A stretch of DNA of 63,009 bases from a virus. A model generated the notes under the pieces. The model was not told where the DNA came from. It was given only the letters and a program-made list of their open reading frames with translations, and searched no databases. The stretch is from IMG/VR virus record IMGVR_UViG_3300042514_001623, positions 1-63,009 of that record. The stretch is one strand, 5' to 3'. A program made the translations under genes and the position numbers. Shown here piece by piece: positions 20,001-53,002 of the stretch. The stretch's first letter is position 1. The number at the start of each line of letters is the position of its first letter.

Positions 20001-23000
20001 GGGCGACATGCGCGTGCTCATCGGCTCCACGCCCAAGCTGGGCGCCGGCACCAACGTGCAGGACCGCCTGGTGGCGCTGCACCACCTTGACGTGCCTTGG
20101 AAGCCCAGCGACGTGGAGCAGCGCGAGGGCCGGATCATCCGCCAGGGCAACAAGCTCATGGACACGGTGCCCGGCTTCGAGGTGGAGATCCTGGCCTACG
20201 TGACCAAGGACACCCTGGACATGCGCATGTGGCAGGTTCAGGAGACGAAGCTGAAAATGATTAATCAGCTTCGCACGCGCCAGATCAGCCGCGAGATCGA
20301 CAACGCTTTCGAGGACATGGAAATGTCCGCGGGCGAGATGCAGGCCGCCGCCACCGGCAACATGGACCTGCTGAAGGAGATCCAGCTTCGCACCGACGTG
20401 AAGAAGCTAGAGCAGGCCAAGCGCAGTTTCGACGCCACGCGCAACGATCTCGTGTCGCGCCGCCGGCGCGCAGACGAGGCGGTGGCCACCCTGCCGGCCA
20501 AGATTGCCCGCGCCGAGAAGATGGCCGAGGCATCCAAGGCCTACACCGACGCGCAGAAGGCGCAGGCCGAGCGTTTCTCGGTGACGGTCAACGGCAAGGC
20601 CTACACCGACGCCCGCGAGGCTGGCGCGGTGCTGCAGGCCTTCGTGGACGCCAAGCAGTTCACCAAGAAGGGCACCGACATCGTTCTGACGCCTGAGCAG
20701 TACCAGGCCATGGACGAGGACGAGCGTTCGGCCAGCAACGGCTGGCAAGAGCGCCCGGTGCCGCTGAAGGTGGAAATGGACGGCAAGACCTACACGGCGC
20801 GCGCTGCGCTGGGTGAGGCTTTCGCCGACCTGCGCGGCGACGTGAACGACGCGCCGCTATGGCAGGTGGACGGGCAGACCTACATCCGCCGCACCAAGGC
20901 CGCCGCGGCCATCGCGCAGCGCGTGGCCGACAGCATGGCCGAGATGACCGAGGCCGAGGTGGGCCGCATCGGCCCCTTCACCGTCACGGTGGAAGGCCAG
21001 CCGCCCAGCGCCTACGCCACGGGCACGACGGGCCTGGAGGTGGTGATTCGCGCGCCTGGCGGTGTGGAGGCGAGCACGACGCTGAACTTCAAGGACATCG
21101 CCAGCGAGGACGACGCCCGCAAGGCGGCAACCGGCGTCATCAACGCGGCCATGAGCCTTGCCAGCGGTGGCCAGCAGCAGGTGTTGTGGCTGCGCAGTGA
21201 CTTGGAGCGACAGCAGCGCGTGCTGGCCGACTTGGCCACGGCCAAGGTGGCGGCCGATTTCCCGCAGCAGGACAAACTGGAAGCAGCCCGCGCGGCGCAC
21301 AAGGAAGTGCTGGCGCGACTGGCGGCCAAGCCCGAGCAGCCTGCAGCGCCCGAGGCCGATGAGGCCGCCGGCGACACCGCACTCAGCCGCGGCGCTGGCC
21401 GCGGTGTGGCCATGGCCGACGCCGAAGCGGCCCGCGACGCCCTGCTGCGCGCGATGCCCAAGGCGCCGCGCATCACCCTGCTGGAACGTGTCGACCAAGC
21501 CCCGGCAAGCCTGCTGAGCAAGATCAGCAGCGCTGGCGCGAGTGCCGACGTGGAGGGCGCCTTCCACGAGGGCGAGGTGTTCATCTTCCCGGGCAACATC
21601 GACAGCCTGGAGCGCCTGCAGTTCGTCATGGCGCACCACGAGTTGCGGCACTACGGGCTGCGCTCGCTGATGCCCAACCAGAACCGCCGCGGCCCGCTGC
21701 TGCTGGCCATCTACAACACCAACCCCGAGATCCGCCGGCAGGCCGACGACAAGATGGCCGCCGGCCTGGCTGGCAGCAAGGTGCTGGCGGTGGAGGAAGC
21801 CCTGGCCGACATGCCGGTGGAGCAGATGCAGGCGCTGAAGGGCGGCCCGCGGCTGCTGGCGGCGCTGCGCGACGTGCTGCGCAAGCTGGCCGAGGTGTTC
21901 CGCAGCCTGGGCTGGGTGCGCGTGGCCGATGCCCTGGAGCCGGCGACGTGGACCGATGCTGACGTGGTGGCCCTGGTGCGCCGGGCTGAAGCGGTGAGCC
22001 GCACGGGTGGGCCGCTGTTCCGGGTGGGGGATACGGCTTTCAGCCGCAGCCCGAGCGTCGCCACCAAGGCCTTGACCGCCGCCCTGTCCAAGCCCGGCGC
22101 CGCGCTGCGCGACGTGCGCCTGCCCGCCGGGTACGTGGTGGGCGACTGGTTCGGCAACAGCCTGGGCCGCCTCCACTGGTGGCACAAGACCGTGGGCACG
22201 CCCTACAACCTGGCAGAGCGTGAGCGCAGCTTCCGGCCGGTGTTCGAGTCGATCCAGAACTTCATGGACGACATCAGCCACTACGCCACCGAGGCGGCCA
22301 ACCTCGCGCCGAGCATCCTGCCCAAGCTGGAGAGCATCACCGACATCCTGAAAGCCCCGCTGCCGCCGGCCGACGTGAAGGCCTTGGCCGCGCCGGTGTT
22401 CGAGGGCACGCTGGGCTGGGGCCGCGACTTGGACGGCAAGCCGGTGCGCATGGTGGATCTTGAGGCGAAGGCCGCACAGCTGAGCGCCGAGGACAAGGCG
22501 CAGGAGATGCTGCGCCGCCGGCTGCTGAACCCGCGCGTGCTGAAGATGTGGCAAGGCCTGCCGCTGGAGCAGTTCGAGGCGGCTGTGGAGACGCGCTACC
22601 AGAACGAGGTGCTCAAGCCCGGTGTGGTGTGGTCCGATGGCGAGCTGCGCACGATGTTCGGTCTGAGCCCGCGCCAGATTGCGCTGTACCGCGAGTTCCG
22701 CAGCGCCACCGACAAGAGCCTGGACGATCTCACCATCACCACCATGCTGCGCGTGGGTGGCGAGGAAGTGGCGGACCTGCGCGAGCAGGTGCTGGCTGAG
22801 CCCGACCTGATGACGGCGGCCGAGCTCATCCGCGACCGGCTGTTCGACCTGGCAGAGCAGCAGCCCGAGAACGCCGACGCGATGAACGCGCGTGGCAACG
22901 GCATCATCGACATCGCCGACCGGGTGGAAGACCTGAAGGACCGCGGCTACGCGCCGCTTTCGCGTTTCGGGCAGTACACCCTGGACGTGGTGACGCCGGA

Positions 23001-24990
23001 TGGCGTGCGCCAGTTCTTCGGCATGTACGAGAGCCGCAGCGAGCGCGCCAAGGCCGTGCGCCTGATGCGTGAGAACTTCCCCGATGCCGACATCAAGCAG
23101 GGCACCACCTCGGAGGAGGAGTTCAAGCTGTTCGCGGGTGTCACGCCCGAGACGCTGGAACTGTTCGGCGACAAGCTGGGCCTGAGCGACGAAGTGGCCA
23201 AGAGCAGCCTGTTCCAGAAGTGGCTGCAGGTGGCCAAGGCCAACCGATCGGGCATGAAGCGGCTGATCCACCGCAAGGGCGTGCCTGGCTTCAGCGAGGA
23301 CGTGGGCCGCGTGCTGGCCTCGTTCATCTACTCCAACGCGCGCCAGGCTTCCAGCAACCTGCACGCTGGCGCGGCCGAGCGGGCCATCGAGGAGATCCCG
23401 CAGAGCAAGGGCCAGTTGAAGGACTACGCCGTTCGCCTGAACGAGTACGTCAAGAACCCGCAGGAGGAGGCGCAGGCGCTGCGCTCCGTGCTGTTCGCGC
23501 AGTTCCTGGGCGGCAGCATCGCTTCGGCCATCGTCAACGCCACGCAGCCGTTCATGGTGACGCTGCCCTACCTGACCCAGTTCGGCGGGGTGGGCAAGGC
23601 CGGTGCGCGCATGGCCGCGGCGCTGAAAGACGTGGGCCGGCGCGAGTTCCCCAAGGACAAGGGCCTGACGGAGGCGCTGAACCGCGCGGCCGAGGACGGC
23701 ATCGTGGCGCCGCAGGAGGTGTTCTTCCTGCAGGCGCAGGCCAGCGGCAAGGCACAGCTTCAGTCCGGCGACGGCACGCTGCTGGGCAACGCCGGGGCGC
23801 GCGTGAACAACGGGATCTCGCGCCTGACCCTGGCGTGGGGAAAGCCGTTCAGCTTCGCGGAGTTGTTCAACCGGCGCCTGACCTTCATCGCGGCGTACCG
23901 CACGGCGCAAGAGGAGGGGATGTCGCGGCCCTACGAGTTCGCCATCAAGGCGGTGCGCGAGACGCAGTTCCTCTACAACAAGGGCAACCGGCCGCGCTGG
24001 GCCCGTGGGGCGGTGGGTGCGCTGCTGTTCACGTTCAAGACCTACAGCGTCAGCATGGTGGAGCACCTGGCGCGCAACGCCAAGACCCCGCAGGGCCGCC
24101 GCGCGCTGCTGGCCGCGCTGGTGATGATCGCCATGATGGCGGGCCTGGATGGCCTGCCGTTCATGGAAGACGTGGAGGACGTGATCGACGGCGTGATGCA
24201 GCGGGTGTTCGACAAGAATTTCTCGCTGCGCTTTGAGCGCAACCAGTGGATCGCGCGGCAACTGATCGCCCTGGTGGGTGAAGACCTGGGCCAGCCGGTG
24301 GCCGATTTCCTGGCCAAGGGCGTCACCGGCCTGCCCGGGGCGCCGTTCGACGTGTCCGGCCGCCTGGGCCTGCACAACATCATCCCGGGCACTGGCGTGT
24401 TCCTGAAGAAGGACAGCTACGCCCGCGACGTGGCCGACGTGGCCGGCGCGGCTGGCAGTTTCGTGGCGCGGATGTTCGACGCCATCGGCAAGGCCGCCGA
24501 GGGCCGCATGAAGGAGGCCCTGGTGCTGGCTTCGCCCATCGCCGTGCAGAACGCGGTGAAGGGCGGGATGATGGCGCAGACCGGCATGTACCCGGACACG
24601 CGCGAGAACATGGTGGTCAAGACCACCCTGGCCGATGCCGGGTTCAAGGCCGCGGGCTTCCAGCCCAAGGTGGTGCAGAAGGCGCAGCAGGTGGCCGGGG
24701 AGAGCGCCCGAGCCGTGGCCCTGGTGCGCCAGGTGGAAACAGAGATCGTCACCGCCATGGCGAAAGCCCTGGCCCGTTCCGATCCCGCCGGATTGCGCGA
24801 GGCGCTGGAACGGCTAGATTCGTGGAACCGGAAGAACCCCGGCTCGCCCATTCGCATCACCCCGAGCCAAGTGCGCGAGCGCTTGAAGAGCATGACCACC
24901 GAGAAGTCTGTTCGCCTGTTGAAGTCTGCGCCGCGCGAGATGCGGCCGGGCTTGGCCGAGCGCTTCCAGCAGCTGGAGCCGCAGGAATGA
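11047..24990 (+). CDS. Giant polyvalent virion protein with DarB-like methylase and SNF2 helicase, 4647 aa
   Basis: One open frame of 4,647 codons. Visible parts: a short N-terminal domain (TFKVRGPDGQ, 5-40); a hydrophobic ejection-type region (about 150-370); Ala/Pro linkers with small repeated domains (about 500-1600); an N6-adenine methylase with motif I ILEPGSGVGNF (1744-1754) and NPPF (1811-1814); an SNF2-type helicase with GAGKT (2452-2456), DEAH (2616-2619), ATGTPVSNS and EQREGRIIRQGN (about 3024-3036); a HELRH zincin motif (3531-3535); PLSRFG (3970-3975, PLxRFG family); and a hydrophobic segment near 4352-4372. P1 DarB and Bcep22-like giant proteins are known relatives; protection of injected DNA is the expected role. 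Linkers hold three other genes. Confidence 0.85.
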   Translation: MTMTTFKVRGPDGQILNIRGPADATDEELQAVAAANWTPSRVGTERGRATLAQAKPLSYLPDPLEPASPNATADMLNAGVDAGAPQTEAGGSVLDRPRDPLAQGFRAASQQQRTLADTAATAKNDRFLSARASEATPMQKQAMALDESGAGGIKRGAIAGGAQLGQIGLGAMRLVGDLTGSETIEGIAAAGSRAAEGTSMASMQGLEGGEKLAAQVTSSIINSAPALALGVIGGPALTTLFAQSTLAEYNAGRNAGFDPGESLGRGIIMGIGEAAGERFGLSEQIALLKGAAKGLPQGEVARLFGNMLVKEIPGEQLTTLVQTLADKIGPAALNPDATLADYLEAAADTLKVTVGQSLVMGGGPAAVTTARNTFRAADQAAAGPEAQAAQEINAAAASFEGFFKPADTAAMPTQARAESVKRFDELAAAFGLDPKAAARVREQAGAMPTAQVPGFLARVTQALNKRGFFRQPVDETGVQELRTRIEPALAPAGTNAATERPAVEQPDVAGTAGVAAGAGDAGAPAAVGSGVAVGPLPDADGGVQPAAAATVPSSGEAGPAGDGGAAGPALTLLPIDADAALANMERQSAQDYADTKAAGRMPEQPDFEPRESTDILNPKGAAWAAKVGANKRLKELGDGYRLARVSTGWVIKPVAPVNTIDTASAPAGPIAQAPGSQSASGAPEAAGADALINAAVEPQAPESSATTQPRPQTLNLDAVSDKGLLNASLADAELLASVAKTEPAGNKLLGSLNVETKRLVLSAVSRLVNDREIFKRVVELVPVEVMNVLTGNSSGADGGSDYRAVLKNLAAVDAENPIPVLVDAADTFVRVTANAAAEKLAMSNGAGAAAPDRDSALSAVEVDAGSLPPSELAGRVAEENARWRSRDAGVSSEDGSTALATLDDRQVNSPTRIDELGSSSDATNDGPPTVRASRASAKPQGVAAEQSPAEAPAPADAAPPPGYEAIEHTTGKGKVLRGVVVKGIKGEDALKLDGGTFKKDGGYFVREKHWGRLPPVVAGNDRGESAPADAPASASTDAQPAAAVDKAKKDQKAEFDRIRAEIAAKKAPAPVDTSPGRAQKPAESEQVAPSLGKALQTAMGKSGWAAEDKGEGNTFWSKRQGQERYTARWDREQGRVEVTALEAGGVETQIAFFEATDAQDAARRADKAVADDLAEIAARNGSASSPAPEKTTPATEVSSSPAEPEVTSSQQPLSDAEQKELDRMLGLNASVGFKDMGGHWMAEATGNSLRMPVRARGSSKDAARRNLLQAVRQAREEQQATAAPSAAAAPTPRPVQTTASRVADARAIGAQAYAEDADRVPPQAFTTAEKRAWLDGYDNAPPRASAAPAPAPAAADPTLDDELNDALGKLGDVLGDVFGAKKNITGPQYGAADLLPALSKVVELLVRKGFKSFAQAAGKAAALMRANEKTAAHVDAITPRQWKAAYNAIAEGTEGTDTEEALSAMTAEQVKAIVSPAIPPAAESAPAPEAQNQAKEPANGNAPRQLDRPGQRALEGAPADPVQAPDAGGRTGQGAEGSGSADGDRVPGAEGAGAGRPGGVGDGAGALPVPGRGAGRKPRGEPKPRVRRDARPDADPGLFGDGAGPDPQGLTAPNVAPPAPPAFTPTDFEIADDLALGEGGQKAKYRGNVEAIRLLRDLEATGRTATPAEQRVLARYVGWGGIAQAFDAGNKDWTREYAELKELLTPEEWATANESTQYAHYTSREIIGGIYEALARMGFTGGKILEPGSGVGNFVGLMPAGLRTSSRFTGVEREAIAVGIAKQLYPRQNIQRADFTEFIGNDGFFDLAIGNPPFARNPLTDKSGRKHLTGLSVHNYFFAKAVDMLREGGILAQVVSNSFLDAKRDTARRYIADRTEFLGAIRLPNNAFAKNANTEVTTDIVFLRKLPESEWGSRSGKENRDRWLDTQNITDPNGGDDIPVNRYFAENPEMMLGQMGRYGTMYGPGQPALVAKPGQDTAALLRAAIARLPEGVYTPPAVANTAAMGDAAIVALRNPKVQEGGHYVEGDKLYRRLQDVAGEARAVELTPDTQWTEKTKLGEEGFARIKALAGLRQTLRDLLAAELADAKDIEALRTRLNTEYDAYAKRHGLINDRPSARVFDDDPDYPLLASLEHGFTPGIGAAAARKMGVKPMLATAKKGPIFKARVIEKRTAPTRASSPADALNISMAERGRIDAAYIGELLGISGEEALRDMSQGAKPLLFMDPASNEYVLRDAYLSGNVRAKLAQARQAGMMANARALEEVQPPDVSAGEISVRVGSPWVPTPVYEAFARHLFGDGTSAKFIYVKANSSFMDAISGESDVASSATWGTPSYPGPQILTSLMNNREIKVMFKDADGSLKVDREATDAANQKATEIKQAFSDWVFSDPERADVLTKAYNEANNNYVTRAFDGGYMQFPGKVPDSIIKFRRHQRNAIARIVQDRTALLDHVVGAGKTFTVISAAMELKRTGLANKPLIMVPNHLVKQWAADFYRLYPGANILTATKKDFEKTNRRRFLAKIATGNWDAVIMAHSSFGFIKPAPEFEAQFNEQQVKNVMDTIDAVNAGDADEGTKKRTVKQLAALKERLENRIDALRQKPIDALLDFKEIGVDQLFVDEAHLFKNLMFTTKMQNVRGLGDSAGSQRAYDLFIKTNQLYAQNGRGQGVVFATGTPVSNSLAEMYHMMRYLMPQALQEGGFESFDAWANTFASVEQVWMQKISANGFKADNRMSTFVNTHELLKMFDQVADTVTMDDIKKAYAEENDGREFPLPKLKTGRRQPVSLDKSQAQEDYMAAVAARAQAIEGKRTNEKGMDNALKIMGDARKAAMDIRLVDVTITEREKGGRIDRAADEIAARYRQYGDVKGTQLVFSDLGTPIKHAREEMKEWEALQARIQKGVDPETVTAANFGNEAAMKVVEDAEDAQREMDEKGADWLDAVKAALRGFSVYDDLRAALVERGIPDSEIAFIHDYNTDDQKLSLFRKMNAGDMRVLIGSTPKLGAGTNVQDRLVALHHLDVPWKPSDVEQREGRIIRQGNKLMDTVPGFEVEILAYVTKDTLDMRMWQVQETKLKMINQLRTRQISREIDNAFEDMEMSAGEMQAAATGNMDLLKEIQLRTDVKKLEQAKRSFDATRNDLVSRRRRADEAVATLPAKIARAEKMAEASKAYTDAQKAQAERFSVTVNGKAYTDAREAGAVLQAFVDAKQFTKKGTDIVLTPEQYQAMDEDERSASNGWQERPVPLKVEMDGKTYTARAALGEAFADLRGDVNDAPLWQVDGQTYIRRTKAAAAIAQRVADSMAEMTEAEVGRIGPFTVTVEGQPPSAYATGTTGLEVVIRAPGGVEASTTLNFKDIASEDDARKAATGVINAAMSLASGGQQQVLWLRSDLERQQRVLADLATAKVAADFPQQDKLEAARAAHKEVLARLAAKPEQPAAPEADEAAGDTALSRGAGRGVAMADAEAARDALLRAMPKAPRITLLERVDQAPASLLSKISSAGASADVEGAFHEGEVFIFPGNIDSLERLQFVMAHHELRHYGLRSLMPNQNRRGPLLLAIYNTNPEIRRQADDKMAAGLAGSKVLAVEEALADMPVEQMQALKGGPRLLAALRDVLRKLAEVFRSLGWVRVADALEPATWTDADVVALVRRAEAVSRTGGPLFRVGDTAFSRSPSVATKALTAALSKPGAALRDVRLPAGYVVGDWFGNSLGRLHWWHKTVGTPYNLAERERSFRPVFESIQNFMDDISHYATEAANLAPSILPKLESITDILKAPLPPADVKALAAPVFEGTLGWGRDLDGKPVRMVDLEAKAAQLSAEDKAQEMLRRRLLNPRVLKMWQGLPLEQFEAAVETRYQNEVLKPGVVWSDGELRTMFGLSPRQIALYREFRSATDKSLDDLTITTMLRVGGEEVADLREQVLAEPDLMTAAELIRDRLFDLAEQQPENADAMNARGNGIIDIADRVEDLKDRGYAPLSRFGQYTLDVVTPDGVRQFFGMYESRSERAKAVRLMRENFPDADIKQGTTSEEEFKLFAGVTPETLELFGDKLGLSDEVAKSSLFQKWLQVAKANRSGMKRLIHRKGVPGFSEDVGRVLASFIYSNARQASSNLHAGAAERAIEEIPQSKGQLKDYAVRLNEYVKNPQEEAQALRSVLFAQFLGGSIASAIVNATQPFMVTLPYLTQFGGVGKAGARMAAALKDVGRREFPKDKGLTEALNRAAEDGIVAPQEVFFLQAQASGKAQLQSGDGTLLGNAGARVNNGISRLTLAWGKPFSFAELFNRRLTFIAAYRTAQEEGMSRPYEFAIKAVRETQFLYNKGNRPRWARGAVGALLFTFKTYSVSMVEHLARNAKTPQGRRALLAALVMIAMMAGLDGLPFMEDVEDVIDGVMQRVFDKNFSLRFERNQWIARQLIALVGEDLGQPVADFLAKGVTGLPGAPFDVSGRLGLHNIIPGTGVFLKKDSYARDVADVAGAAGSFVARMFDAIGKAAEGRMKEALVLASPIAVQNAVKGGMMAQTGMYPDTRENMVVKTTLADAGFKAAGFQPKVVQKAQQVAGESARAVALVRQVETEIVTAMAKALARSDPAGLREALERLDSWNRKNPGSPIRITPSQVRERLKSMTTEKSVRLLKSAPREMRPGLAERFQQLEPQE
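12551..12757 (+). CDS. Small nested gene in +1 frame of the giant gene, 68 aa, CTG start
   Basis: In the +1 frame the giant gene contains a compact, protein-like reading: a start at CTG 12551 (MSNSLTWQELPEW...), then QGHLLLWEAAWLWDHCLM, and a helix ending EKLALLEMEALPGLH before TGA at 12755. GGAG at 12540-12543 lies seven bases before CTG. Over the same bases the giant frame is a low-complexity Ala/Gly/Val linker. The Trp-rich amphipathic sequence looks selected. CTG is a rare start, so translation from GTG 12602 or ATG 12605 is an alternative. No family was recognised. Confidence 0.5.
   Translation: MSNSLTWQELPEWLLEPVMQGHLLLWEAAWLWDHCLMQTEEFSPLPPQLFPAAEKLALLEMEALPGLH
13156..13764 (-). CDS. 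HNH homing endonuclease, antisense inside the giant gene, 202 aa
   Basis: TTG start at 13764, preceded by GGAG eight bases away. Residues 1-70 contain two CxxC zinc pairs (CSQCG ... CNTSC; CAQCG ... CSSVC). An HNH core follows, with EHR, KDVHHLDGDKLNNALENL and H in SAHGREH. The C-terminal helix-turn-helix is ASGLSLGNAGKQLGVSKRCV. This is the plan of mobile HNH endonucleases. It lies wholly inside the 4,647-codon frame on the other strand, which stays open, so its antisense (residues about 704-906) is translated as part of a linker. Base composition from about 13015 to 13840 is visibly lower in GC than the flanks, a sign of recent arrival. Confidence 0.85.
   Translation of the reverse strand: MPIVQCSQCGAAVLRTDSRIARTPSGVFFCNTSCQFAWRQRACVHFNCAQCGVAVRRSRAGTIGHRKLFCSSVCRDTNKRVGSVNEDGYRVFSVNGRQVLEHRAVVAAAIGPAAIAGKDVHHLDGDKLNNALENLAVVDKSAHGREHKPLSFDIERAKQLVASGLSLGNAGKQLGVSKRCVEKAFVRYGVQIECLRPRLRRR
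15542..15877 (+). CDS. Small nested gene in +1 frame of the giant gene, 111 aa
   Basis: ATG at 15542 is preceded by AAGGAG seven bases upstream, a near-ideal ribosome binding site inside the giant gene. The 111-residue product is helical and well-formed: HHANWIAQANEHWKEHQP, then LGKALKEAAAQTATEFQALK and DALAAWEMVRERYLFPAEE. I recall similar small proteins with a W-x2-AQ-x3-HW and AWE-x-VRE-x-YLF pattern in other phages, without a known function. The giant frame over the same bases is low-complexity Gly/Arg/Pro/Asp, as expected when the other frame carries the constraint. Confidence 0.75.
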   Translation: MEMHHANWIAQANEHWKEHQPTRYKRLMQAGELGKALKEAAAQTATEFQALKEQGLDALAAWEMVRERYLFPAEEPGASPAESPSQGYGAMRDLTQTLGSLGMEPDPIRKD

Positions 24991-28449: not shown

Positions 28450-29766
28450 CTATGCAGCGCGCCCCTTCGTGCCCTTGGGCTCCCCGGCCGCACTGGTTCG
28501 AGTCCAATCGCGCCTACCAACATCCGGCCCCGTCTTCTCCTCGGAAGACGGGGTTTTTTGTTGCCCGGACGCCAGGGCCTGGGGAGATTCCAGGGGGATT
28601 TCCTGCCCGGTCATGGCCGCCGCCAGGCGCTGCCGTTCGCTGCCGCCGTCGTTTTCGGGAATCCAGCGCGCGTAGGTGTCCAGCAGCATCTTGACGCTGT
28701 GCCCGGCCTGCGCCGCGATGTACCCGGGCTTGATGCCCCGCATCAGCGCCACCGTGCAGTAGGTGTGCCGGGTGCAGTACGGCCGGCGCCGGCGCACGCC
28801 CAGCAGCTTCAGCGTGGGAACCCAGTAGTGCTCGCGCTGGCTGCGTTCATCGTGCCAGGGCCTGCCCGTCACCGGGTTCTCGAAGATGTCCACCTCGCGG
28901 CCCTCGGTGTCGCGCTTCATGGCGGTGTAGGGCTTCATGGCCTTCAGCGCGTCCAGGGCCGGCGGCACGAGATCCACGTCGCGCACGGTGTGCGTCTTCG
29001 ATCCCTCGCGCTCGGAACCCATGAACGTGCGCACGCGCTGCACCCGGGCCGTGGCCGCGTTCCAGTCGATGTCTTCCCAGCGCAGGGCGATGATCTCCTC
29101 GGGCCGCATGCCGGTGAAGAACGCAAAGGCGAAGTAGGCCCACACGCGGATGTCGTAGCGCTTGCGCATGCTGGACAGGATGGCGTCGCGCTCCGCGATG
29201 GTCAGCGGGTCGGGCAGCTTCTTGACCACGCGGCGGTTCGTGATGTCGGCCAGCGGGTTCTCCAGCGCCTTCGGGCCGCGGAACTCCATGGCGAAGACCC
29301 CCCGCAGCGGGATCATGTAGTTGTTGAACAACCGCGCCGAGGACCACGGGTAGCTGCCGATCTTCACGCTCAGCACCTTGTGGGTCAGTTCGGCCAGCGG
29401 CTTGTCGGCGCCCAGCACCTGCTTCCACACCTTCAGGGCGTTGCGGTACTGCGCGCGGGTGGCCGGTGCGAGCTCGCCCTGGGCCTTCAGCCAGTCGTCG
29501 GCCAGCGCGCCGAAGGTCAGCGCAGCGGCGGGCGCGGCGGCGGCGCGCGGCGAGTCGGGGAAGAACTCGGCCAGGTCGAACGTGCCGGCCGCGATGCGCG
29601 CCCGGATGGCCGCGATGACGCGGTGGGCGTGCTTGATGTTGGGCCCCGTGGGCAACATCGGCACGCCGTTGGTGGTGAGGGTTTCGCGCATGCTCACGCC
29701 GGCGACGGTGAACGCCAGCCGGATGCTCTTGGCGCGGATCTCTACGCCGCTGCCGCCACGGCCCAT
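28450..29766 (-). CDS. int: Tyrosine integrase, 438 aa
   Basis: Site-specific recombinase for integration and excision. The N-terminal arm-binding domain is of the DUF3596 type (GVEIRAKSIRLAFTVAGVS, about 8-70), followed by a core-binding SAM-like domain. The catalytic residues are in place: R221 in TGMRPEE, H334 in the TRHTYCT motif (canonical HxxR box as T-R-H-T), H356 in AGHS and tyrosine Y365 in DTYARWI. The tail (RRDWTRTS...) is encoded by the attP core and is expected to change on integration. The start overlaps the excisionase gene by 25 bp. Integron integrase features were not seen. Confidence 0.9.
   Translation of the reverse strand: MGRGGSGVEIRAKSIRLAFTVAGVSMRETLTTNGVPMLPTGPNIKHAHRVIAAIRARIAAGTFDLAEFFPDSPRAAAAPAAALTFGALADDWLKAQGELAPATRAQYRNALKVWKQVLGADKPLAELTHKVLSVKIGSYPWSSARLFNNYMIPLRGVFAMEFRGPKALENPLADITNRRVVKKLPDPLTIAERDAILSSMRKRYDIRVWAYFAFAFFTGMRPEEIIALRWEDIDWNAATARVQRVRTFMGSEREGSKTHTVRDVDLVPPALDALKAMKPYTAMKRDTEGREVDIFENPVTGRPWHDERSQREHYWVPTLKLLGVRRRRPYCTRHTYCTVALMRGIKPGYIAAQAGHSVKMLLDTYARWIPENDGGSERQRLAAAMTGQEIPLESPQALASGQQKTPSSEEKTGPDVGRRDWTRTSAAGEPKGTKGRAA
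28494..28519 (+). other. attP: attP core: 3' end of a tRNA gene (tRNA-Val type)
   Basis: The 26 bases read TGG-TTCGAGT-CCA (T-arm) followed by ATCGCGCCT and ACCA, i.e. the 3' end of a tRNA including discriminator and CCA. No tRNA 5' part is present. The mating acceptor strand would be AGGCGCG, which fits my memory of betaproteobacterial tRNA-Val(GAC). It lies inside the 3' end of the integrase gene, coding for about residues 416-424 on the minus strand. Integration at the host tRNA would restore the tRNA 3' end. Confidence 0.8.
28528..28559 (+). terminator. Rho-independent terminator next to attP core
   Basis: A perfect 10-bp stem CCCCGTCTTC (28528-28537) pairs with GAAGACGGGG (28544-28553), followed by six T (28554-28559). 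It starts nine bases after the tRNA-like CCA. In a lysogen this sequence would follow the restored tRNA, so it could end the tRNA transcript before it runs antisense into the integrase gene. Confidence 0.75.
28581..28600 (+). promoter_or_regulatory. Candidate integrase arm-type sites, right arm (two repeats)
   Basis: GGGGAGATT (28581-28589) and AGGGGGATT (28592-28600), 11 bp apart, match the four repeats on the other side of the core at 28383-28424. They lie within the integrase coding region, so that sequence carries both protein-coding and site information. Confidence 0.45.
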
Positions 29767-34135: not shown

Positions 34136-34285
34136 CTACGTGCCGTCTGGAGCCACATAGACCCGGTAGCCGCTCGACGCTGGGGCGCTGCCTTCGCCAC
34201 CCCGCCCCTCTGCTTCCGCGTCTTGCCCCCGGTAGAGGTGTCGTGTCCCGCGCGCCGGTGTCTGCTTGGCGTCCGCGCGGGGCAT
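34136..34285 (-). CDS. Possible small gene, 49 aa
   Basis: ATG 34285, 11 bases after the primase stop, opens a 49-residue frame: MPRADAKQTPARGTRHLYRG ... SAPASSGYRVYVAPDGT, ending in TAG TGA. The amino-acid makeup is more natural than that of the competing frame (34003-34299). That competing frame, however, has 4-base overlaps with both neighbours (GTGA with the primase stop and GTGA with NinB) and would be 98 residues of Arg/Pro/Ser/Thr-rich sequence. Only one is likely real; the choice is open. Confidence 0.35.
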   Translation of the reverse strand: MPRADAKQTPARGTRHLYRGQDAEAEGRGGEGSAPASSGYRVYVAPDGT

Positions 34286-41167: not shown

Positions 41168-42028
41168 GTGAACGCTGTCACCGAGATTAAACACGAGGCC
41201 AGCGCGCTGAGCGCTGCGCCAGAAGCCCCCGCCACCCGCGCGCTGAGCGTGATCGAGCACGCCGTGCGCAGCGGCGCCACGCCCGACCAATTGGAGCGCC
41301 TGCTGGACCTGCAGGTGCGCGCCGACAACCACCAACTCGAACTGATGCGCGAGCGGCGCCGCATGGACGAGGAAGACCGCAAAGCCGCCGCGCTGCTGGC
41401 CTTCCGCCGCGACTTCGCCGCCTTCCGTGGCGAGAACATCATCATCCCCAAGAACGGCTTTGCAGACCGCGCCAAGGCGGGCAGTTTCAACTTCGCCCGG
41501 TTCGGCGACGTGATGCAGATGTTGTCCCCCGCGCTGTCCAAGCACGGGTTCAGCATCCGCCACAACGAGGTGTTCGGGTCCAAGCCCTGGGTGACCGATG
41601 GCGTGGAAAGCACGGTGCCGTGGGTCTACGTCACCTGCTACCTCGAACACCGCGACGGACACAGCGAGCGCCTGGACCTTGAAGGCCCGCCGGGTGATGC
41701 AACGGCGAATACGCCGGCGCAGAACATGCAACTCACGGGCAGCTACCTGAAGCGTCAGGCCACGCTGGCCATCACCGGCACGGCCACGGCCGACGAGGAC
41801 GACGAGAACAAGCTGAAGGGCGAAGGCAAGGCCGGCGCCCAGCAGCCGGACGCTGATGCGCTGGAGGCCCTGCTGGCCACCGGCCGCGATGAGTCCCTGA
41901 AGGGCATGGCCGCGCTGACCGCGTGGTGGGGCTCGCTGAACGCCCGGCAACGCGCCGACCTGAGCCCCGACTTCCCCGGCCTGCGCAAGGCCGCCCAGGC
42001 CGCCGATCAGCAGGGGGGTGCCAAGTGA
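41168..42028 (+). CDS. erf: ERF-family single-strand annealing protein, 286 aa
   Basis: GTG 41168 with AAGGA upstream. The N-terminal 70 residues are a helical leader. From about 75 the ERF domain is clear: AFRGENIIIPKNGFADRAKA, FNFARFGDVMQMLSPALSKH, GFSIRHNEVFGS, YVTCYLEHRDGHSE, and AQNMQLTGSYLKRQATLAIT (the conserved final helix), then TADEDDEN. The last 60 residues are a linker and short C-terminal domain. It anneals complementary single strands in phage recombination together with the exonuclease encoded next. Confidence 0.85.
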   Translation: MNAVTEIKHEASALSAAPEAPATRALSVIEHAVRSGATPDQLERLLDLQVRADNHQLELMRERRRMDEEDRKAAALLAFRRDFAAFRGENIIIPKNGFADRAKAGSFNFARFGDVMQMLSPALSKHGFSIRHNEVFGSKPWVTDGVESTVPWVYVTCYLEHRDGHSERLDLEGPPGDATANTPAQNMQLTGSYLKRQATLAITGTATADEDDENKLKGEGKAGAQQPDADALEALLATGRDESLKGMAALTAWWGSLNARQRADLSPDFPGLRKAAQAADQQGGAK

Positions 42029-46861: not shown

Positions 46862-47058
46862 GCACACCACGCGACGACCGCCCCGCATACATGGCCGCCA
46901 TGCTGAGCGGCAACCACGTTCAGGCGCTGGCGATCGAGCGCCGCCACGGCTTGGACGGTTACCCGCCCGACCTGGTGAGCGTGGGCCTCAAGGCTGCTGC
47001 TGAAGGCCGCGATGCGCTGGAAGCCGTCGAAGCCCACATTGAGGAGAGCGCATCATGA
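46858..47058 (+). CDS. Hypothetical protein, 66 aa
   Basis: GTG 46858 overlaps the preceding stop. RPAYMAAMLSGNHVQALAIE and DGYPPDLVSVGLKAAAEGRD, then an acidic C-terminus. No family was recognised. Confidence 0.45.
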   Translation: MSTPRDDRPAYMAAMLSGNHVQALAIERRHGLDGYPPDLVSVGLKAAAEGRDALEAVEAHIEESAS

Positions 47059-47804
47059 GCACCAAGACCGAGGCCGGGCCGGTGGCGCCGGTTTGCTATT
47101 GCCCTCCTGAGCTGCTGCTGAAGCTAGACGACGAGGATTATCGCGCTGGATGGATGGCGCGCGTGAAAAGCGCGCCGAATGCCGTGTTCAGCGTCCCCCT
47201 CTACGCCCACCCGCCCGCACAAGAGCATCCCAACCTAGCGTGCAAGTCAGTGCAAAAGCGCCTTGCTACGCAGTGGGGCTACGTGCCCGCACAAGAGCAG
47301 CCGGCGCCCGGTGGAATGCCGAACGGCTACGAGGCCATGACTACCTGCTACAAGCGGTACGTCTCGCCTGCGCAGTACGCCGCCTTCTCGCCCGGGGTGC
47401 AGAAGTGGTATCGGCCTTTCTGGACTGCCACCCACCCCACGCCAGCCGAGCGCGCAGAGCAGCCACAAGCCGAGCAGGAACTGCGCGAGCTGCTGGCTGT
47501 GCGTGTGGCCGGTGCGCTGCTGTACGCCGACGATGGCGAATTGCAGGACGCCAGCGAACTGCCGGCCATCGACTTCAAGCGGGACGCCCCGGGCGAGATT
47601 GCTCGCAAGCTGACAGACCGGGGCCTGAAGCGCCTGACGCGCGCAGAGCAGCCCCCGCGCGATGCCGTGCAGCAGGGGCTGACGGATGAGCAGATTGATG
47701 CACTGTGGCGCCAGGCCGCATCCGCAGACGGATTCACTACGGCGCAGTTCGTGCGCGAGTTCGCCCGCGCCATCGAGCGCGCCACCCTGAAAGGCCAGCC
47801 ATGA
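47055..47804 (+). CDS. Hypothetical protein, 249 aa
   Basis: An ATGA overlap starts it, and it ends by overlapping the first cassette-like gene. The N-terminal part (YRAGWMARVKSAPNAVFSVP, LYAHPPAQEH) resembles the VPLYxxPP segment found in many phage and prophage proteins of unknown function. The rest is modular and Gln/Ala/Glu rich (EQELRELLAVRVAGALLYAD; DEQIDALWRQAASADGFTTA). It is the last ordinary operon gene before the integron cassette array. Confidence 0.5.
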   Translation: MSTKTEAGPVAPVCYCPPELLLKLDDEDYRAGWMARVKSAPNAVFSVPLYAHPPAQEHPNLACKSVQKRLATQWGYVPAQEQPAPGGMPNGYEAMTTCYKRYVSPAQYAAFSPGVQKWYRPFWTATHPTPAERAEQPQAEQELRELLAVRVAGALLYADDGELQDASELPAIDFKRDAPGEIARKLTDRGLKRLTRAEQPPRDAVQQGLTDEQIDALWRQAASADGFTTAQFVREFARAIERATLKGQP

Positions 47805-48103
47805 GCGGCGGGGACAGTGCGGGTCGGGGGGTGTTGAGCGAGGGGCTAGGCCTGGCTCCGGAGCGCCTGAGCGAAGACCGCGCACGCACGCTTATTGAGG
47901 CATGGCTGGACGAGCACGCCCAAGGATACCCGGACTACTCGCTGTGCGAAGACGGCGACGATGCCTGGGCCTTCTGGATCGCCGAGAAGGACACCACCAG
48001 TTACCTGCATTCCGATGGCCGCGTGGAGTGGTACGGCACCGGGTGGCCGGAGATCTACCAGTACGACGGCGACTCCGGCCTGTGGTCGTCGGCAAGGGCC
48101 TAA
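47801..48103 (+). CDS. Cassette-type ORF 0, hypothetical, 100 aa
   Basis: ATG 47801 overlaps the upstream phage gene (ATGA). The first 17 codons cover what looks like the right half of an old attC (ending in GCTAGGC, 47845-47851). The body reads ARTLIEAWLDEHAQGYPDYS, LCEDGDDAWAFWIAEKDTTS, YLHSDGRVEWYGTGWPEIY, an acidic, aromatic protein. Its TAA stop is inside the GCCTAAC core at 48098, as in normal gene cassettes. I recall similar W-rich DDxxAFW proteins in phages and cassettes, without function. Confidence 0.6.
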   Translation: MSGGDSAGRGVLSEGLGLAPERLSEDRARTLIEAWLDEHAQGYPDYSLCEDGDDAWAFWIAEKDTTSYLHSDGRVEWYGTGWPEIYQYDGDSGLWSSARA

Positions 48104-48116
48104 CGGACAGTTAGGC
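48098..48116 (+). repeat. Collapsed attC: GCCTAAC and GTTAGGC five bases apart
   Basis: GCCTAAC (48098-48104), GGACA, GTTAGGC (48110-48116). The two core sites are perfect inverted repeats with almost no arm between them, far shorter than functional attC sites (about 57-141 bp). It is probably a deletion product of a full attC. Confidence 0.75.
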
Positions 48117-48137
48117 ATCACTGCAACGAGGAACACG

Positions 48138-48338
48138 ATGAAGAAACTACAACTTACCCCGTGGTTCAAGGCGGCGACACAGAAGCCAGTCCGTCGCGGC
48201 TGGTACGACTTCTATGACGGACTTTGGGGCCAGCATGTGCGCGCCATGTGGAACGGCACCTACTGGGTTTGGCAGGAAGGCACCCGCATCGACCCATACC
48301 CGTGCGACAAGTGGCGCGGGGTTTCGGGTGATGCCTAA
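48138..48338 (+). CDS. Cassette 1 ORF, hypothetical, 66 aa
   Basis: ATG 48138 with ACGAGG upstream, in a cassette from about 48111 to 48435. Product: MKKLQLTPWFKAATQKPVRR, GWYDFYDGLWGQHVRAMWNG, TYWVWQEGTRIDPYPCDKWR. It is small, aromatic and basic. The TAA stop is inside the attC core at 48333. The PVRxGWYD and WRG ends are reminiscent of small phage proteins of unknown function. Confidence 0.6.
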   Translation: MKKLQLTPWFKAATQKPVRRGWYDFYDGLWGQHVRAMWNGTYWVWQEGTRIDPYPCDKWRGVSGDA

Positions 48339-48441
48339 CGCGCGAGCTAACCGGCCCGCAGAGGGCCAGAGGAGTGACAGGTGAGCACAGACGATACGAG
48401 CCCCGCTACTGCGGGTCCGGTGGTTCAGCGCGGTGTTAGGC
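48333..48441 (+). repeat. attC: attC site 1 (109 bp)
   Basis: Left arm GCCTAACGCGCGAGCTAACC and beyond. Right arm, read as reverse complement, GCCTAACACCGCGCTGAACC and beyond. They pair over about 25 positions with short bulges, ending near CCCGCAG. The single-stranded loop includes a ribosome binding site (GAGGAG) and the GTG start of the next ORF. Confidence 0.85.
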
Positions 48442-48743
48442 CCTGCGCGTGGTGGCGCGAGAGCATTTACGCGGAATGCTGGCCGTGCGTGACCGTAGAC
48501 GAAAAGGAGGCCGAGTTCTGGCGCTCCGAAGGGCTGACGGTTGTTGAGCTGGGTGACGTGGCCGCAGAACGCGCAGAGTCGGCGCGGCTTCGCCACCTCC
48601 TGAATCTGGCGCGCGACGACTACAACACTGCGGCGCAGCGGCTGCAAGACATTGGCGACTACGCGCACGACCACAGCACCGGCCCAGCAGTGCCGGATGC
48701 GCTGTGGGAAGTGTGCTCAATGGCCTACGGTTCAGGGGCCTAA
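48381..48743 (+). CDS. Cassette 2 ORF, hypothetical, 120 aa
   Basis: GTG 48381 lies inside the loop of attC 1, with GAGGAG eight bases upstream, so the first 20 residues (MSTDDTSPATAGPVVQRGVR) are encoded by the recombination site. The body: CAWWRESIYAECWPCVTVDE, KEAEFWRSEGLTVVELGDVA, RLRHLLNLARDDYNTAAQRL. The stop TAA lies in the next attC core. The function is not recognised. Confidence 0.6.
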   Translation: MSTDDTSPATAGPVVQRGVRPCAWWRESIYAECWPCVTVDEKEAEFWRSEGLTVVELGDVAAERAESARLRHLLNLARDDYNTAAQRLQDIGDYAHDHSTGPAVPDALWEVCSMAYGSGA

Positions 48744-48860
48744 CGTTCGAGTTCACCCGGACTCCAACAGCGCGAGGATCACAAATTGAATGAGAAAGCC
48801 ACAAATTCCGATGAGAGCCGGCCCGCTGTTGGTGGTCCGGGGTGCAACGAGGGGTTAGGC
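48738..48860 (+). repeat. attC: attC site 2 (123 bp)
   Basis: Left arm GCCTAACGTTCGAGTTCACC and beyond. Right arm as reverse complement GCCTAACCCCTCGTTGCACC and beyond. Both continue into CCGGAC and CCAACAGCG in register. The loop holds GAGGATCACAAA and the TTG start used by the next ORF. Confidence 0.85.
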
Positions 48861-49178
48861 CCGCTGCCAACCATCCGGCCCGGTGAAACAGACGCGGAGT
48901 TTGTGGCGCAGATTGAGGCCACGCACTGCCGGCCGCTGACGCCACCGGAGCGGATGCCGCAATACATCCGCGACGAGTTGCCTGATGAACTGGCAGCCCA
49001 TCGTTTGCAGGCGTGGGCAGATGCGCGCGTGGCCGCAGAGCGCGCGAGATTCCTGCGCCTCATTGCGCGGCACTGCGAAGACGCCTGCGTGGCCGCCGTA
49101 CTCGAAGACTCAGTGCGCCTCGGGTTGGATGTGGGGCCTAACGTCGGAAATCAGGCGGACCCGGAGGCGAAGCCGTAG
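48786..49178 (+). CDS. Cassette 3 ORF, hypothetical, 130 aa
   Basis: TTG 48786 lies inside attC 2. Residues 1-25 (MNEKATNSDESRPAVGGPGC) are encoded by the attC arm. The body: LPTIRPGETDAEFVAQIEAT, CRPLTPPERMPQYIRDELP, DELAAHRLQAWADARVAAER, a helical protein. Unlike the other ORFs its frame reads through the left attC core and stops at TAG 49176 in the next attC loop. The start is uncertain; the ribosome binding site is weak. Confidence 0.5.
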   Translation: MNEKATNSDESRPAVGGPGCNEGLGPLPTIRPGETDAEFVAQIEATHCRPLTPPERMPQYIRDELPDELAAHRLQAWADARVAAERARFLRLIARHCEDACVAAVLEDSVRLGLDVGPNVGNQADPEAKP

Positions 49179-49205
49179 GGGCTCGCCTGCATTGACCAGT
49201 TAGGC
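49136..49205 (+). repeat. attC: attC site 3 (70 bp)
   Basis: GCCTAACGTCGGAAATCAGG and GTTAGGC ends, with CAGGCG paired to CGCCTG, and a central GGCGAAGCC hairpin. This is the length and shape of classical short attC sites, with unpaired extrahelical bases between the paired boxes. Confidence 0.9.
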
Positions 49206-49233
49206 CACGGCTCCGAAGCGAAAGGACAAAAGC

Positions 49234-49515
49234 ATGCAAGCGTTGAGCGACCTGATAACTGCGGCAGTGCAACTGGCCGGCGCAGATGACACCGTGAGCC
49301 ACGGCGCGCGGCTGTGGCACAGCGAAGGCGGCCGGCGCTGCCCGCTTGGCTGGGAGGACTGCTCGCAGGCGGTGTACATGGACCTGAAGACCGGCGAGTA
49401 CGACTATGGCGATCCTGGCGGCCCTGGGCATGCGGACTGCGAACGCAACTGCGCTCACGGCATGTTGCCTGCGCCGGAAGACGAGAACGAAGGCCCGTAT
49501 GCCTTGGTGGCCTAA
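49234..49515 (+). CDS. Cassette 4 ORF, hypothetical, 93 aa
   Basis: ATG 49234 with GAAAGGAC upstream. Product: MQALSDLITAAVQLAGADDT, SHGARLWHSEGGRRCPLGWE, DCSQAVYMDLKTGEYDYGDP, with several Cys and His (RRCPLGWEDC, ADCERNCAHG) that could bind a metal. The TAA stop is inside the next attC core at 49510. I recall such W-x-SxGGRxCPLGW proteins as phage or cassette hypotheticals. Confidence 0.6.
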   Translation: MQALSDLITAAVQLAGADDTVSHGARLWHSEGGRRCPLGWEDCSQAVYMDLKTGEYDYGDPGGPGHADCERNCAHGMLPAPEDENEGPYALVA

Positions 49516-49614
49516 CGTTGGAGCTGAACGGGCACCAACGGCAGGCACAGATTAACCCGGAGCGCGCCACGGCAACCCTGCCGTTGGGGCTCCGATTCGA
49601 GCGACGAGTTAGGC
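49510..49614 (+). repeat. attC: attC site 4 (105 bp)
   Basis: Left arm GCCTAACGTTGGAGCTGAAC and beyond. Right arm as reverse complement GCCTAACTCGTCGCTCGAAT and beyond. Both end in CCAACGGCAGG, giving a long outer stem with a bulged base. The loop is about 30 bases. Confidence 0.85.
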
Positions 49615-49640
49615 CACGCTGTGGCCGGAGCGAGAAAACG

Positions 49641-49871
49641 ATGGCAAAGCGATTCACCAAGGCGGCACTTGTCGAACAACTGCGCGACCTTGCGGACAAC
49701 GTGCAGCAGACCCGCCACTTTGACGGCGGCAACGGCACCGCGCAGCTTCGCCCGCGCGGATGCGATGAAGCCACCCAAGCGCTGATTGATAAGGCTGTGG
49801 ACTATGGCCGCTGGCGCACGCTCCACAACTTGGCCGCGGACGTGGAGTGCGGGTGTATTGGCGTGGCCTAA
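49641..49871 (+). CDS. Cassette 5 ORF, hypothetical, 76 aa
   Basis: ATG 49641, GGAGCGAGAAAACG upstream. Product: MAKRFTKAALVEQLRDLADN, VQQTRHFDGGNGTAQLRPRG, DEATQALIDKAVDYGRWRTL, then VECGCIGVA. Small and helical. The TAA stop lies in the last GCCTAAC core (49866-49872), which has no partner GTTAGGC downstream, so the attC is truncated. Confidence 0.6.
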   Translation: MAKRFTKAALVEQLRDLADNVQQTRHFDGGNGTAQLRPRGCDEATQALIDKAVDYGRWRTLHNLAADVECGCIGVA

Positions 49872-49880
49872 CCCGTAGAT

Positions 49881-50246
49881 ATGCCACCTTTCCAAAGTCC
49901 GCGCAGGCCCGCGAGCCGCTGGGCCGCATACAACGCAACGCCAGGCGCGCACAAGCGCCGGAGCGCCGCGCGTGAGGCCGCCAGCATTGCCGGCCCGGCC
50001 CCGGCATACCCGCCGCTGGCCCCGTTGCATGGGGATTGGCTGGGCGGGTCCATAAACGGCAAGACCGTCATCATGCGGCTGATGCGAGATCCGCAGCACC
50101 GTTCTGACCAGTGGGCGGGCGAGATCGACGGCGAGGCGGTGACGGACGCCGCCGGCCTGACGCGGCTGTGGGAACTGCTGAGCAAGCGCTGGCCCAAGGC
50201 GCCGAGCCGGCGCACGCTGGCTGGGTTGGGAAAGCGCGAAGGGTGA
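49881..50246 (+). CDS. Hypothetical protein after the cassette array, 121 aa
   Basis: ATG 49881 follows directly after the orphan attC core. The N-terminal 45 residues are basic and Pro/Ala rich (PRRPASRWAAYNATPGAHKR). The rest: HGDWLGGSINGKTVIMRLMR, DPQHRSDQWAGEIDGEAVTD, AAGLTRLWELLSKRWPKAPS. The last helix is typical of small phage proteins. It is the last gene of the rightward operon before the structured spacer. The start may lie further downstream. Confidence 0.5.
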   Translation: MPPFQSPRRPASRWAAYNATPGAHKRRSAAREAASIAGPAPAYPPLAPLHGDWLGGSINGKTVIMRLMRDPQHRSDQWAGEIDGEAVTDAAGLTRLWELLSKRWPKAPSRRTLAGLGKREG

Positions 50247-51403: not shown

Positions 51404-53002
51404 GTGGCTGTCTCAATCGTTGACGGCACGGCCGCCGCTGCCTGGCTGGCCGCAACCACTCAGCGCGCACAGCTCGAAGCCCTGGCGGCGCCGTGGGGCG
51501 GGTCTGCGGTGACGGCGCGCTTCTTCAGCGCTGGCGGCGACTTGCTGCGCACGCAGACCCTGCCGGCCCTGAGCATCGACACGGTGGCGGCTCCGTACCG
51601 TTTCAACCTCGGCCGCTACGTGGCAGACACCCATGTGGCCGAGGGCACGGCTGCGCGCCTGGATCTTCGCGCGGGCTCTACAGACATCGTGCGGCTGGAC
51701 TGCGGCCTGACGGGCTCGGGCGCCAGCGTAGAGCTTGCAGGGCCGCTGAAAGAGCTTTGCCCGCCCGACCTGGCCGGCGTGGAGTTGCTGGCGGATAGCG
51801 CGCTGCCTGCCGGGCCGCCGAACACGCTGCTGCTGACCGACGACGGGATGATGGCGAATGGCACTTTGCCCCTCGGCTCTCTTGAGTTGGACGGGGCGGT
51901 GTTCGTCGGCCACAACTCGCAAGACGGCCCGCGCGTGGCAAAGCATGTGCTTGCCACCGGCGTGACCACGGTCAGCGACTCGCTGCGCACGGCCATCGGC
52001 AATTCAGACCACTCAGCGCCGTGCGTCGTTGCGCGAAGCGATGGCAGGCTGACGGCCTTCTACTCGCGCCACAACATCGAAAACACCGCGTATCAGCGCA
52101 CCACCGTCAACCCCGGCGACGTGTCGTCTTGGGGCACCGAGGTCAATCTGAACGATGGCGGCGCCATCACCTATCCGAGCGTGATCGTGTGCGGCTCTCG
52201 GTGGCTGCTCACCTTCCGCGTGGACAACTCGTGGCGCTACCGCGTCAGCACTGACGAGGGCGCCACCTGGGGGCCGGGCATCACTGCGGCCACCTACTCG
52301 GGCGACGGCTCGGGCTCGCGGCCTTACCTGCTGCCTGTGTGGAATGCGGCGCAGAGCCGGGTTGACTTCGCCGTCATCGCCCAGGGTGCTGACCGCTTCC
52401 TTGTGCCCTACCTCTGGCACGTCTACGCGACTTTCGACGGCAGCAACGCGCTGACCTTCTTCAAGACCGATGGCACTTCGCTGGGCGCCGCCTTCGATGC
52501 TGCAAACGCCACCGAGATTTACAACGGCGCGCCTGATGGCGTGGACATCGCGTTCCAAATCGTCACGATCAACCCGAGCACCGGCGCGGTCTGGATCATG
52601 GCGCGTCGCATCAACAGCACCACCAGCAGCGACATGCTGCTGTATCGGCAGAACGGCACCGGCTGGCTGGGCCCTTCCACCATCTACAACGCGGGCTATC
52701 CCACAAGCCCAACGCGCACCGACTACGTGCCGGGGGCGGTCTTCCACCCGACCGACCCGACCCGCGTCTTCGGCATCCGGTCAACCGGCTACAGCGGCCC
52801 GAGCCGCTTGGCCGAGTACGCCACCACCGATGGCGGCGCCACATGGGCTTTCGTGCGCGAGATGACTCCGTGGAGCGAAGACAACGTGGAGCTGCTGCGG
52901 CCCCACGCGATTCAGAACGGCACCAAATATCTGGTGGCCTGGGCCAGCGGTCGCTTCACGGAGCTGACCGATTGGGACACATCAATTCTCATGGGAGCCT
53001 GA
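51404..53002 (+). CDS. Asp-box/sialidase-fold tail protein, 532 aa
   Basis: GTG start. The N-terminal 150 residues are a virion-attachment-type beta region. The rest has the sialidase/BNR arrangement with Asp-box motifs STDEGATWG (near 285) and TTDGGATWA (near 480) and repeated propeller-like segments (YPSVIVCGSRWLLTFRVDNS; PYLLPVWNAAQSRVDFAVIA). It may be a host-surface-binding or glycan-cutting tail protein. A complete sialidase catalytic set could not be verified by eye. Confidence 0.65.
   Translation: MAVSIVDGTAAAAWLAATTQRAQLEALAAPWGGSAVTARFFSAGGDLLRTQTLPALSIDTVAAPYRFNLGRYVADTHVAEGTAARLDLRAGSTDIVRLDCGLTGSGASVELAGPLKELCPPDLAGVELLADSALPAGPPNTLLLTDDGMMANGTLPLGSLELDGAVFVGHNSQDGPRVAKHVLATGVTTVSDSLRTAIGNSDHSAPCVVARSDGRLTAFYSRHNIENTAYQRTTVNPGDVSSWGTEVNLNDGGAITYPSVIVCGSRWLLTFRVDNSWRYRVSTDEGATWGPGITAATYSGDGSGSRPYLLPVWNAAQSRVDFAVIAQGADRFLVPYLWHVYATFDGSNALTFFKTDGTSLGAAFDAANATEIYNGAPDGVDIAFQIVTINPSTGAVWIMARRINSTTSSDMLLYRQNGTGWLGPSTIYNAGYPTSPTRTDYVPGAVFHPTDPTRVFGIRSTGYSGPSRLAEYATTDGGATWAFVREMTPWSEDNVELLRPHAIQNGTKYLVAWASGRFTELTDWDTSILMGA

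Follow-up and report, generated by a model that had tools for sequence, protein, structure and literature searches.

A phage-borne array of inverted integron cassettes and its candidate integron lineage

Virus record IMGVR_UViG_3300042514_001623 of IMG/VR, the 63,009 nucleotides of which were analysed as a whole and are here called the window, carries an array of five small gene cassettes set apart by four intact attC sites and one deleted site. Judged by attC structure, crossover signature, cassette turnover, polarity and array boundary, all of which are read from sequence, this locus most probably belongs to an integron lineage that is carried by phages and has its cassettes inverted, although it lacks a gene for the integron integrase (intI). 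A preliminary description made from the letters of the window had proposed a cluster of attC sites lacking an integron integrase (CALIN) in a temperate phage, which is supported by the four attC sites without IntI in cis and by the tyrosine integrase of the phage itself. It had also stated that no well-described example of such an arrangement was known, which is wrong, as phage CALINs have been published (Qi et al., 2023, PMC9892861).

attC sites and their polarity

The motif GTTAGGC occurs in 11 copies in the window, both strands summed, compared with a mean of 3.1 and a maximum of 9 in shuffled sequences. All 11 GCCTAAC/GTTAGGC cores are confined to positions 48098-49872, where they alternate between small open reading frames (ORFs) of the same direction as first described. 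The proposed six-ORF array with attC junctions thereby stands, except that the pair of cores at 48098/48110 is a 19-nt remnant and not an intact site. The window sites agree with the general attC pattern, in which an R'' (RYYYAAC) and an R' (GTTRRRY) box lie at a distance of 50-150 bp, and have an imperfect stem, an extra base in L'' that is unpaired in L' and spacers of 5 and 6 nt, in the common order R, spacer, L, variable top, L with one bulged base, spacer, R. The site at 48333-48441, for example, reads on the minus strand R'' GCCTAAC, 5 nt, L'' GCTGAACC with an extra G, L' GGTTAGC, 6 nt and R' GTTAGGC, the extra base being G in three of the window sites and C in the fourth. Over 16 sites from the window and its relatives, 88% of the pair cells are formed, versus 22-45% after a shift of the partner column by 1-3 positions. 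On the plus strand the four intact sites fold as imperfect hairpins (z -2.5 to -3.6 versus shuffles, n=4); the minimum-energy fold of 49510-49614 differs from a single full-length hairpin. All sites are found by the covariance model R1, which was built for this analysis and includes the window sites in its training set (Table 1). Rfam holds no attC family, and its scan of the window returned one match, unrelated to attC. By the definition of a CALIN as at least two attC sites without adjacent intI, the four sites of the window constitute one.

In an attC site, L'' carries a base without partner in L', and strand exchange occurs solely at L'-R' (Bouvier et al., 2009, PMC2727003). On the plus strand of the window, the extra base is situated in the arm adjoining GTTAGGC and the spacers are 6 and 5 nt, so that the sites read R''-5-L''(extra base)-..-L'-6-R' on the minus strand. 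As the extra base falls into L'' only on the minus strand, this is the canonical attC direction, opposite to the plus-strand genes. A first reading, in which the attC sites were oriented along the ORFs, was dropped in the light of the attC-ORF linkage data and of this bulge test. The same arm asymmetry is displayed by 272 of 293 callable viral sites and by 128 of 132 bacterial sites of this attC type.

The loci for the comparison of polarity were gathered by a strand-neutral DNA pattern or by protein relatives, so that the search did not select polarity. Gene direction was called by a codon score trained on the window phage's own genes, because a caller based on the longest ORF left 99 of 230 viral cases unclear. 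By codon score, 216 viral cassettes are reversed, none is normal and 14 are unclear, with all 61 loci reversed; neither in the window nor in any of these loci do the genes run in the R''-to-R' direction of their attC. Burkholderiales arrays of the same attC type gave 56 normal, 6 reversed and 48 unclear cassettes. The longest-ORF count agrees in direction (viral 108 to 23 for reversed, bacterial 7 to 81), further viral loci were reversed in 42 cases versus 1, and the 65 attC matches obtained from the 29 loci scanned are without exception on the same strand as intI or the flank gene. Taken from sequence, the reversed attC polarity of phage arrays appears to be a new observation.

Cassette exchange, array boundary and phage integron integrases

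A related phage, G001/L006, a 52 kb record with a portal 98% and a terminase 97% identical to those of the window phage, aligns with the window as far as 47852 and once more from 49866 onward, the match breaking off at cores; in between, it possesses a longer array of 4.6 kb with about 10 other cassettes. The turnover at this locus is thus complete between the same flanks. Both this turnover and the detection of the sites by a covariance model favour the preliminary description, which had named the absence of either as grounds for its own rejection. Equally, L009 and L010, which derive from different metagenomes, are 99.98% identical across 12,507 bp and have arrays that differ by one 384-bp unit of attC and ORF, core to core, while L006 and L091 have a pair of these units, 99-100% identical, with their order interchanged. 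With reversed polarity, the exchange unit becomes the attC site and the gene that follows it; in fact, an attC found in a new context had kept the following ORF 8 times and the preceding ORF once.

A cassette circle closed at G^TTRRRY, the IntI crossover, would leave the cores that flank one gene complementary even where neighbours differ. All window cores are identical, which makes the window alone uninformative in this respect. In viral arrays, on the other hand, 136 of 157 informative ORF segments match across the ORF, 16 across the attC and 5 are tied (binomial p about 7e-25, with segments of one contig not fully independent), the pairs GTTAGCC..GGCTAAC and GTTATGC..GCATAAC of L006 among them. 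The palindromic cores might alternatively be mere linkers or terminators of modules, exchanged through the phage Erf or by homologous recombination without any integron integrase. The window has a gene for an Erf-like annealing protein (41168-42028), the breakpoints of some exchanges fall on the one or the other core and a 66-nt attC moves independently of both neighbours, all of which would suit such a process. Covariation of the cores across the ORF and not across the hairpin, however, needs a circular intermediate cut at one base; furthermore, the arms still differ between L'' and L', with spacers of 5 and 6 nt and the extra base, and sister phages have IntI genes at the array end, so that exchange of mere linkers is highly improbable.

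The core at 49866, seen as an orphan in the preliminary description, is rather the right boundary, where the array ends at an attI-like junction, an arrangement that appears to be new. In ten contigs from IMG/VR, the window included, the flank is conserved from the crossover base: the sequence 3' of GCCTAA^C is common, with 8 nt followed by the start of the gene for a 121-aa protein, and the sequence 5' of it changes with the last cassette (mean majority fraction at the cut 0.58 on the cassette side versus 0.86 on the flank side). The junction, which reads ..CATATCTACGG^TTAGGC on the minus strand, fits the pattern of a candidate attI in these ten contigs, with a fixed sequence next to variable cassettes at G^TT. 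Its sequence is unlike the attI sites compared, those of sampled bacteria giving no match with the phage junctions. At the opposite end, the half-site that forms the left boundary holds the start codon of the first ORF. Window positions 47764-47852 are 86.5% identical to L006 12609-12692, with the alignment ending at the core, which is an intact GTTAGGC in L006 where the window has GCTAGGC.

In 11 contigs of the G041/L315 group, a second group of more distantly related phages, the position of the junction is filled by a conserved AAC-NNN-AATTCGACCGC..GGCGTAACA with intI directly after, and several of these contigs continue with a small xis-like gene and then a phage integrase, an order that may tie integron recombination to prophage excision. 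Such sister phages unite intI, attI and cassettes in a complete integron, which the window, a complete genome without intI, does not. The phage intI has normal orientation with its start codon facing attI, the cassette genes being flipped, and in several of the intI contigs tail genes lie close by. Nine phage IntIs score 405-429 bits versus a TIGR02249 cut-off of 265; the search of the window for IntI with this model gave a best score of only 14.6 bits, on the phage's own integrase. In the IntI tree, 16 phage IntIs cluster together with support of 100/97, and the 13 intI rows sampled from Burkholderiales genomes, a small selection of the bacterial IntIs, fall outside this cluster. Integron integrase genes were observed in 28 IMG/VR contigs (L315-L341). 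The array end of G015 (L258) adjoins a xis-like gene and a phage integrase without intI, possibly a third kind of platform; a partial IntI match in G015 was rejected, as it corresponds to the integrase of the phage itself, which adjoins the array. For virus Rctr41k (H33), an integrase-like gene was also discarded, a scan having found no attC pairs.

Homologues in unrelated viral groups were found for 64 of 189 phage cassette proteins and homologues in bacterial integron loci (0.54 Mb) for 4 of 189, a comparison that is only indicative as the viral set is about 2.5 times larger than the bacterial set. The four fall into L208 and L213, small contigs of bacterial metagenome-assembled genomes (Rubrivivax and Aquincola) with reversed arrays and cassettes in common with phages, which are probably phage contigs. 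With both loci being phage-like reversed arrays, the shuttling of cassettes between bacterial integrons envisaged by the preliminary description is doubtful. As an observation in its own right, the assignment of L208 and L213 to Rubrivivax and Aquincola is a possible clue to the host.

An ordinary phage CALIN, that is a decaying piece of a bacterial chromosomal integron acquired by chance as proposed for some published phages, would be in accordance with the phage CALINs and integron fragments already known, with the abundance of the attC type in Burkholderiales chromosomes and with the deleted site and half-site left boundary of the window. It is nevertheless unlikely, considering that the phage polarity is reversed versus the sampled bacterial arrays, that cassette content is common among phages and hardly shared with bacterial loci, that the same boundary is found with different cassettes in ten contigs and that relatives differ by whole cassettes. 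That fragments of bacterial or mobile integrons were mistaken for viral contigs is hardly credible: IMG/VR entries are predictions and the set includes short contigs without structural genes, but the genome in the window is circular and complete and has genes for terminase, portal, tail and integrase, and many other array records have portal, terminase, tail or capsid genes.

In the phage-borne integron lineage favoured here, cassettes would be circles of one attC and one small phage-type gene, and IntI would recombine the folded attC with the attI-like site that closes the array on its 3' side, the predicted cut being GCCTAA^C, or G^TTAGGC when read on the minus strand. With this cut beside the attI-like site, a new cassette would come to adjoin the right-flank gene and older ones would be displaced leftward, and, with attC inverted relative to the genes, cassette genes would be read toward the attI-like site. 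The array sits within a run of plus-strand genes with all its ORFs on the plus strand, and expression might occur by read-through of the rightward (early) phage operon and not from a promoter Pc beside attI. With no intI in the window phage, IntI would have to be supplied in trans, be it by the host, by a prophage resident in the same cell or by a co-infecting phage. The cassettes may benefit the phage, for example against restriction.

Several observations weigh against this scheme. The window itself contains no IntI gene, only 1 of 50 attC-bearing virus records has intI, and the right junction of the window resembles the attI of intI-bearing phages in the core only. In 91 pairs of near-identical attC sites neither neighbouring ORF is shared, and one ORF common to L006 and L009 is bordered on either side by attC sites that differ between the two. 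A short 66-nt attC with hardly any top is also found repeatedly, each time between other ORFs, which a simple model of one attC and one ORF does not account for. Viral status, in turn, rests on the IMG/VR classification and on structural genes in a sample of the records.

Phage mosaicism is mostly ascribed to illegitimate or homologous recombination. Many phages appear to swap accessory genes in the form of integron cassettes, at a fixed site and with single-base precision, so that near-identical genomes have different arrays. Reversed polarity provides a simple marker to tell phage from bacterial cassettes, which makes the source of a cassette testable, and raises the question of how IntI chooses the strand on a platform transcribed from the other side. 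A broader reading, to which we would give even chances, is that freshwater Burkholderiales phages keep an integron system of their own, with an IntI clade, an attI beside xis-int and a pool of inverted-attC cassettes, the platform of the window having lost or never had intI. If this is true, inverted cassettes would be readable by phage operons and antisense to Pc once in bacterial integrons, phage and bacterial cassette pools would be functionally separate despite a common attC chemistry, and the window phage would depend on others for intI.

Array genes, cargo and the phage genome

Five of the six ORFs of the array have the TAA of GCCTAAC as stop codon, ORF C extending beyond its core. ORF 0 has a codon score of +37 versus -17 on the opposite strand and no family match; ORF C, with a TTG start inside attC, has a weak one (+4.3 versus 0.0). 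ORF B starts either at GTG 48381, inside attC and with a Shine-Dalgarno-like AGAGGAG, or at 48489. With Shine-Dalgarno-like and start sequences within the attC top (48381 and 48786), attC would double as leader of several genes. Homologues of ORF D (up to 82%) occur in two unrelated phage array groups. The window cassettes gave no significant match in Pfam or PHROGs, no relatives of cassette B were found in viral contigs, and GenBank phages had none of cassette A, of cassette D or of the right-flank gene.

Table 1. Positions of the array features, of the integrase of the window phage and of a recurrent attC in related loci (bits: covariance model R1, trained with the window sites)
Feature	Position	Strand	Remarks
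Left-flank gene (249 aa)	47055..47804	+	56% identical protein beside array of G010
Left boundary	47764..47852	+	Truncated attC half (L and R arms), degenerate core GCTAGGC 47845-47851
ORF 0 (100 aa), array-distal	47801..48103	+	Stop TAA in core 48098-48104
Remnant attC	48098..48116	-	19 nt; two R boxes kept, L arms and top lost; 18.3 bits
Cassette 1 (235 bp)	48104..48338	+	Remnant attC and ORF A 48138-48338 (66 aa)
attC site	48333..48441	-	67 bits; fold z -2.5
Cassette 2 (405 bp)	48339..48743	+	attC and ORF B; stop in core 48738
attC site	48738..48860	-	77 bits; fold z -2.8
Cassette 3 (398 bp)	48744..49141	+	attC and ORF C 48786-49178 (130 aa, past core)
attC site	49136..49205	-	58 bits; fold z -3.2
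Cassette 4 (374 bp)	49142..49515	+	attC and ORF D 49234-49515 (93 aa)
attC site	49510..49614	-	69 bits; fold z -3.6
Cassette 5 (356 bp), adjoins attI-like site	49516..49871	+	attC and ORF E 49641-49871 (76 aa)
attI-like junction	49866..49897	-	Core GCCTAA^C, then conserved CCGTAGAT-ATG of right-flank gene
Right-flank gene (121 aa, function unknown)	49881..50246	+	Fixed array neighbour in at least 8 phage records
Phage's own tyrosine integrase	28450..29766	-	Arm-DNA-bind_2 and Phage_integrase; not an IntI
66-nt attC occurrences	L006:13494, L009:12874, L010:12490, L021

A search with 129 cassette proteins gave few matches, namely four to DNA methylases and one each of the RNA ligase, dNMP phosphatase and HNH-like kinds, and the matches best supported by PADLOC on the cassettes were methyltransferases. 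The array loci represent a large reservoir of small, uncharacterised phage genes, DNA methyltransferases included, naturally sorted as accessory functions.

The record ends in an exact terminal direct repeat of 127 bp, which is best explained by a genome that is circular, complete and 62,882 bp long, with a GC content of 67.6%. Besides the Erf-like gene, terminase, portal, internal virion protein, tail, holin and tyrosine integrase genes are present, and the phage is probably temperate as its own tyrosine integrase has an Arm domain. For the host, the attC type is the only indicator and points to freshwater Burkholderiales as the probable host group; no prophages with the right-flank gene were found in the GTDB genomes searched. 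No relatives at the DNA level were found among GenBank phages. Other features of the genome are the ORF of 4647 aa at 11047-24990 (+), which takes up 22% of the genome and is also present in G001, a Betaproteobacteria-1 small RNA (Rfam RF02932, 62.7 bits) at 34161-34283 (-) that adjoins Toprim and helicase genes kept in relatives, and a BNR-repeat protein (BNR_4, 6.7e-09) at 51404-53002 (+), possibly carbohydrate-active or tail-associated.

Relation to known systems

The general layout with the 4647-aa ORF is reminiscent of Bcep22-like phages. Bcep22-like and Stx-type podophages are like the window phage in portal, terminase, internal virion protein and the architecture of the giant ORF; the window phage nevertheless differs by a portal less than 40% identical to that of the nearest GenBank phages, a distant likeness to Achromobacter, Vibrio and Stx podophages, and by the lack of any nucleotide match.

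In the open-access literature, preprints and subscription papers aside, neither reversed-polarity phage arrays nor the phage intI group were found reported. According to Qi et al. (2023, PMC9892861), phages carry 17 CALINs and several complete integrons, and phage attC sites are recombined by IntI1. Like the window, the phages described there have attC arrays without intI and, like the arrays analysed here, a cargo of small ORFs of unknown function and DNA methyltransferases. Unlike the window, the cases checked, namely TJE1 with its one attC site and the array of M16-3, have normal polarity, which for M16-3 means normal asymmetry along the genes in 8 of 11 scanned pairs, some of them probably spurious. 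A conserved attI-like end with turnover across phages and a phage intI clade beside xis-int were not found in the text consulted.

The sedentary chromosomal integrons of Burkholderiales (Rubrivivax, Ideonella, Sphaerotilus and others) share with the phage sites the attC consensus, GCCTAACGTTYGARCTAA on one strand, and the arm asymmetry. Their ORFs, however, run opposite to the phage ORFs relative to attC, and their intI genes, as sampled above, fall outside the phage clade. The 'reverse' integrons of Treponema, in which intI itself is flipped and points toward attI (PMC3607928), resemble the phage loci in that intI and cassette genes are transcribed in one direction. The same outcome is reached by different means, as Treponema flips intI whereas the phage loci keep a normal intI and flip the cassette genes.

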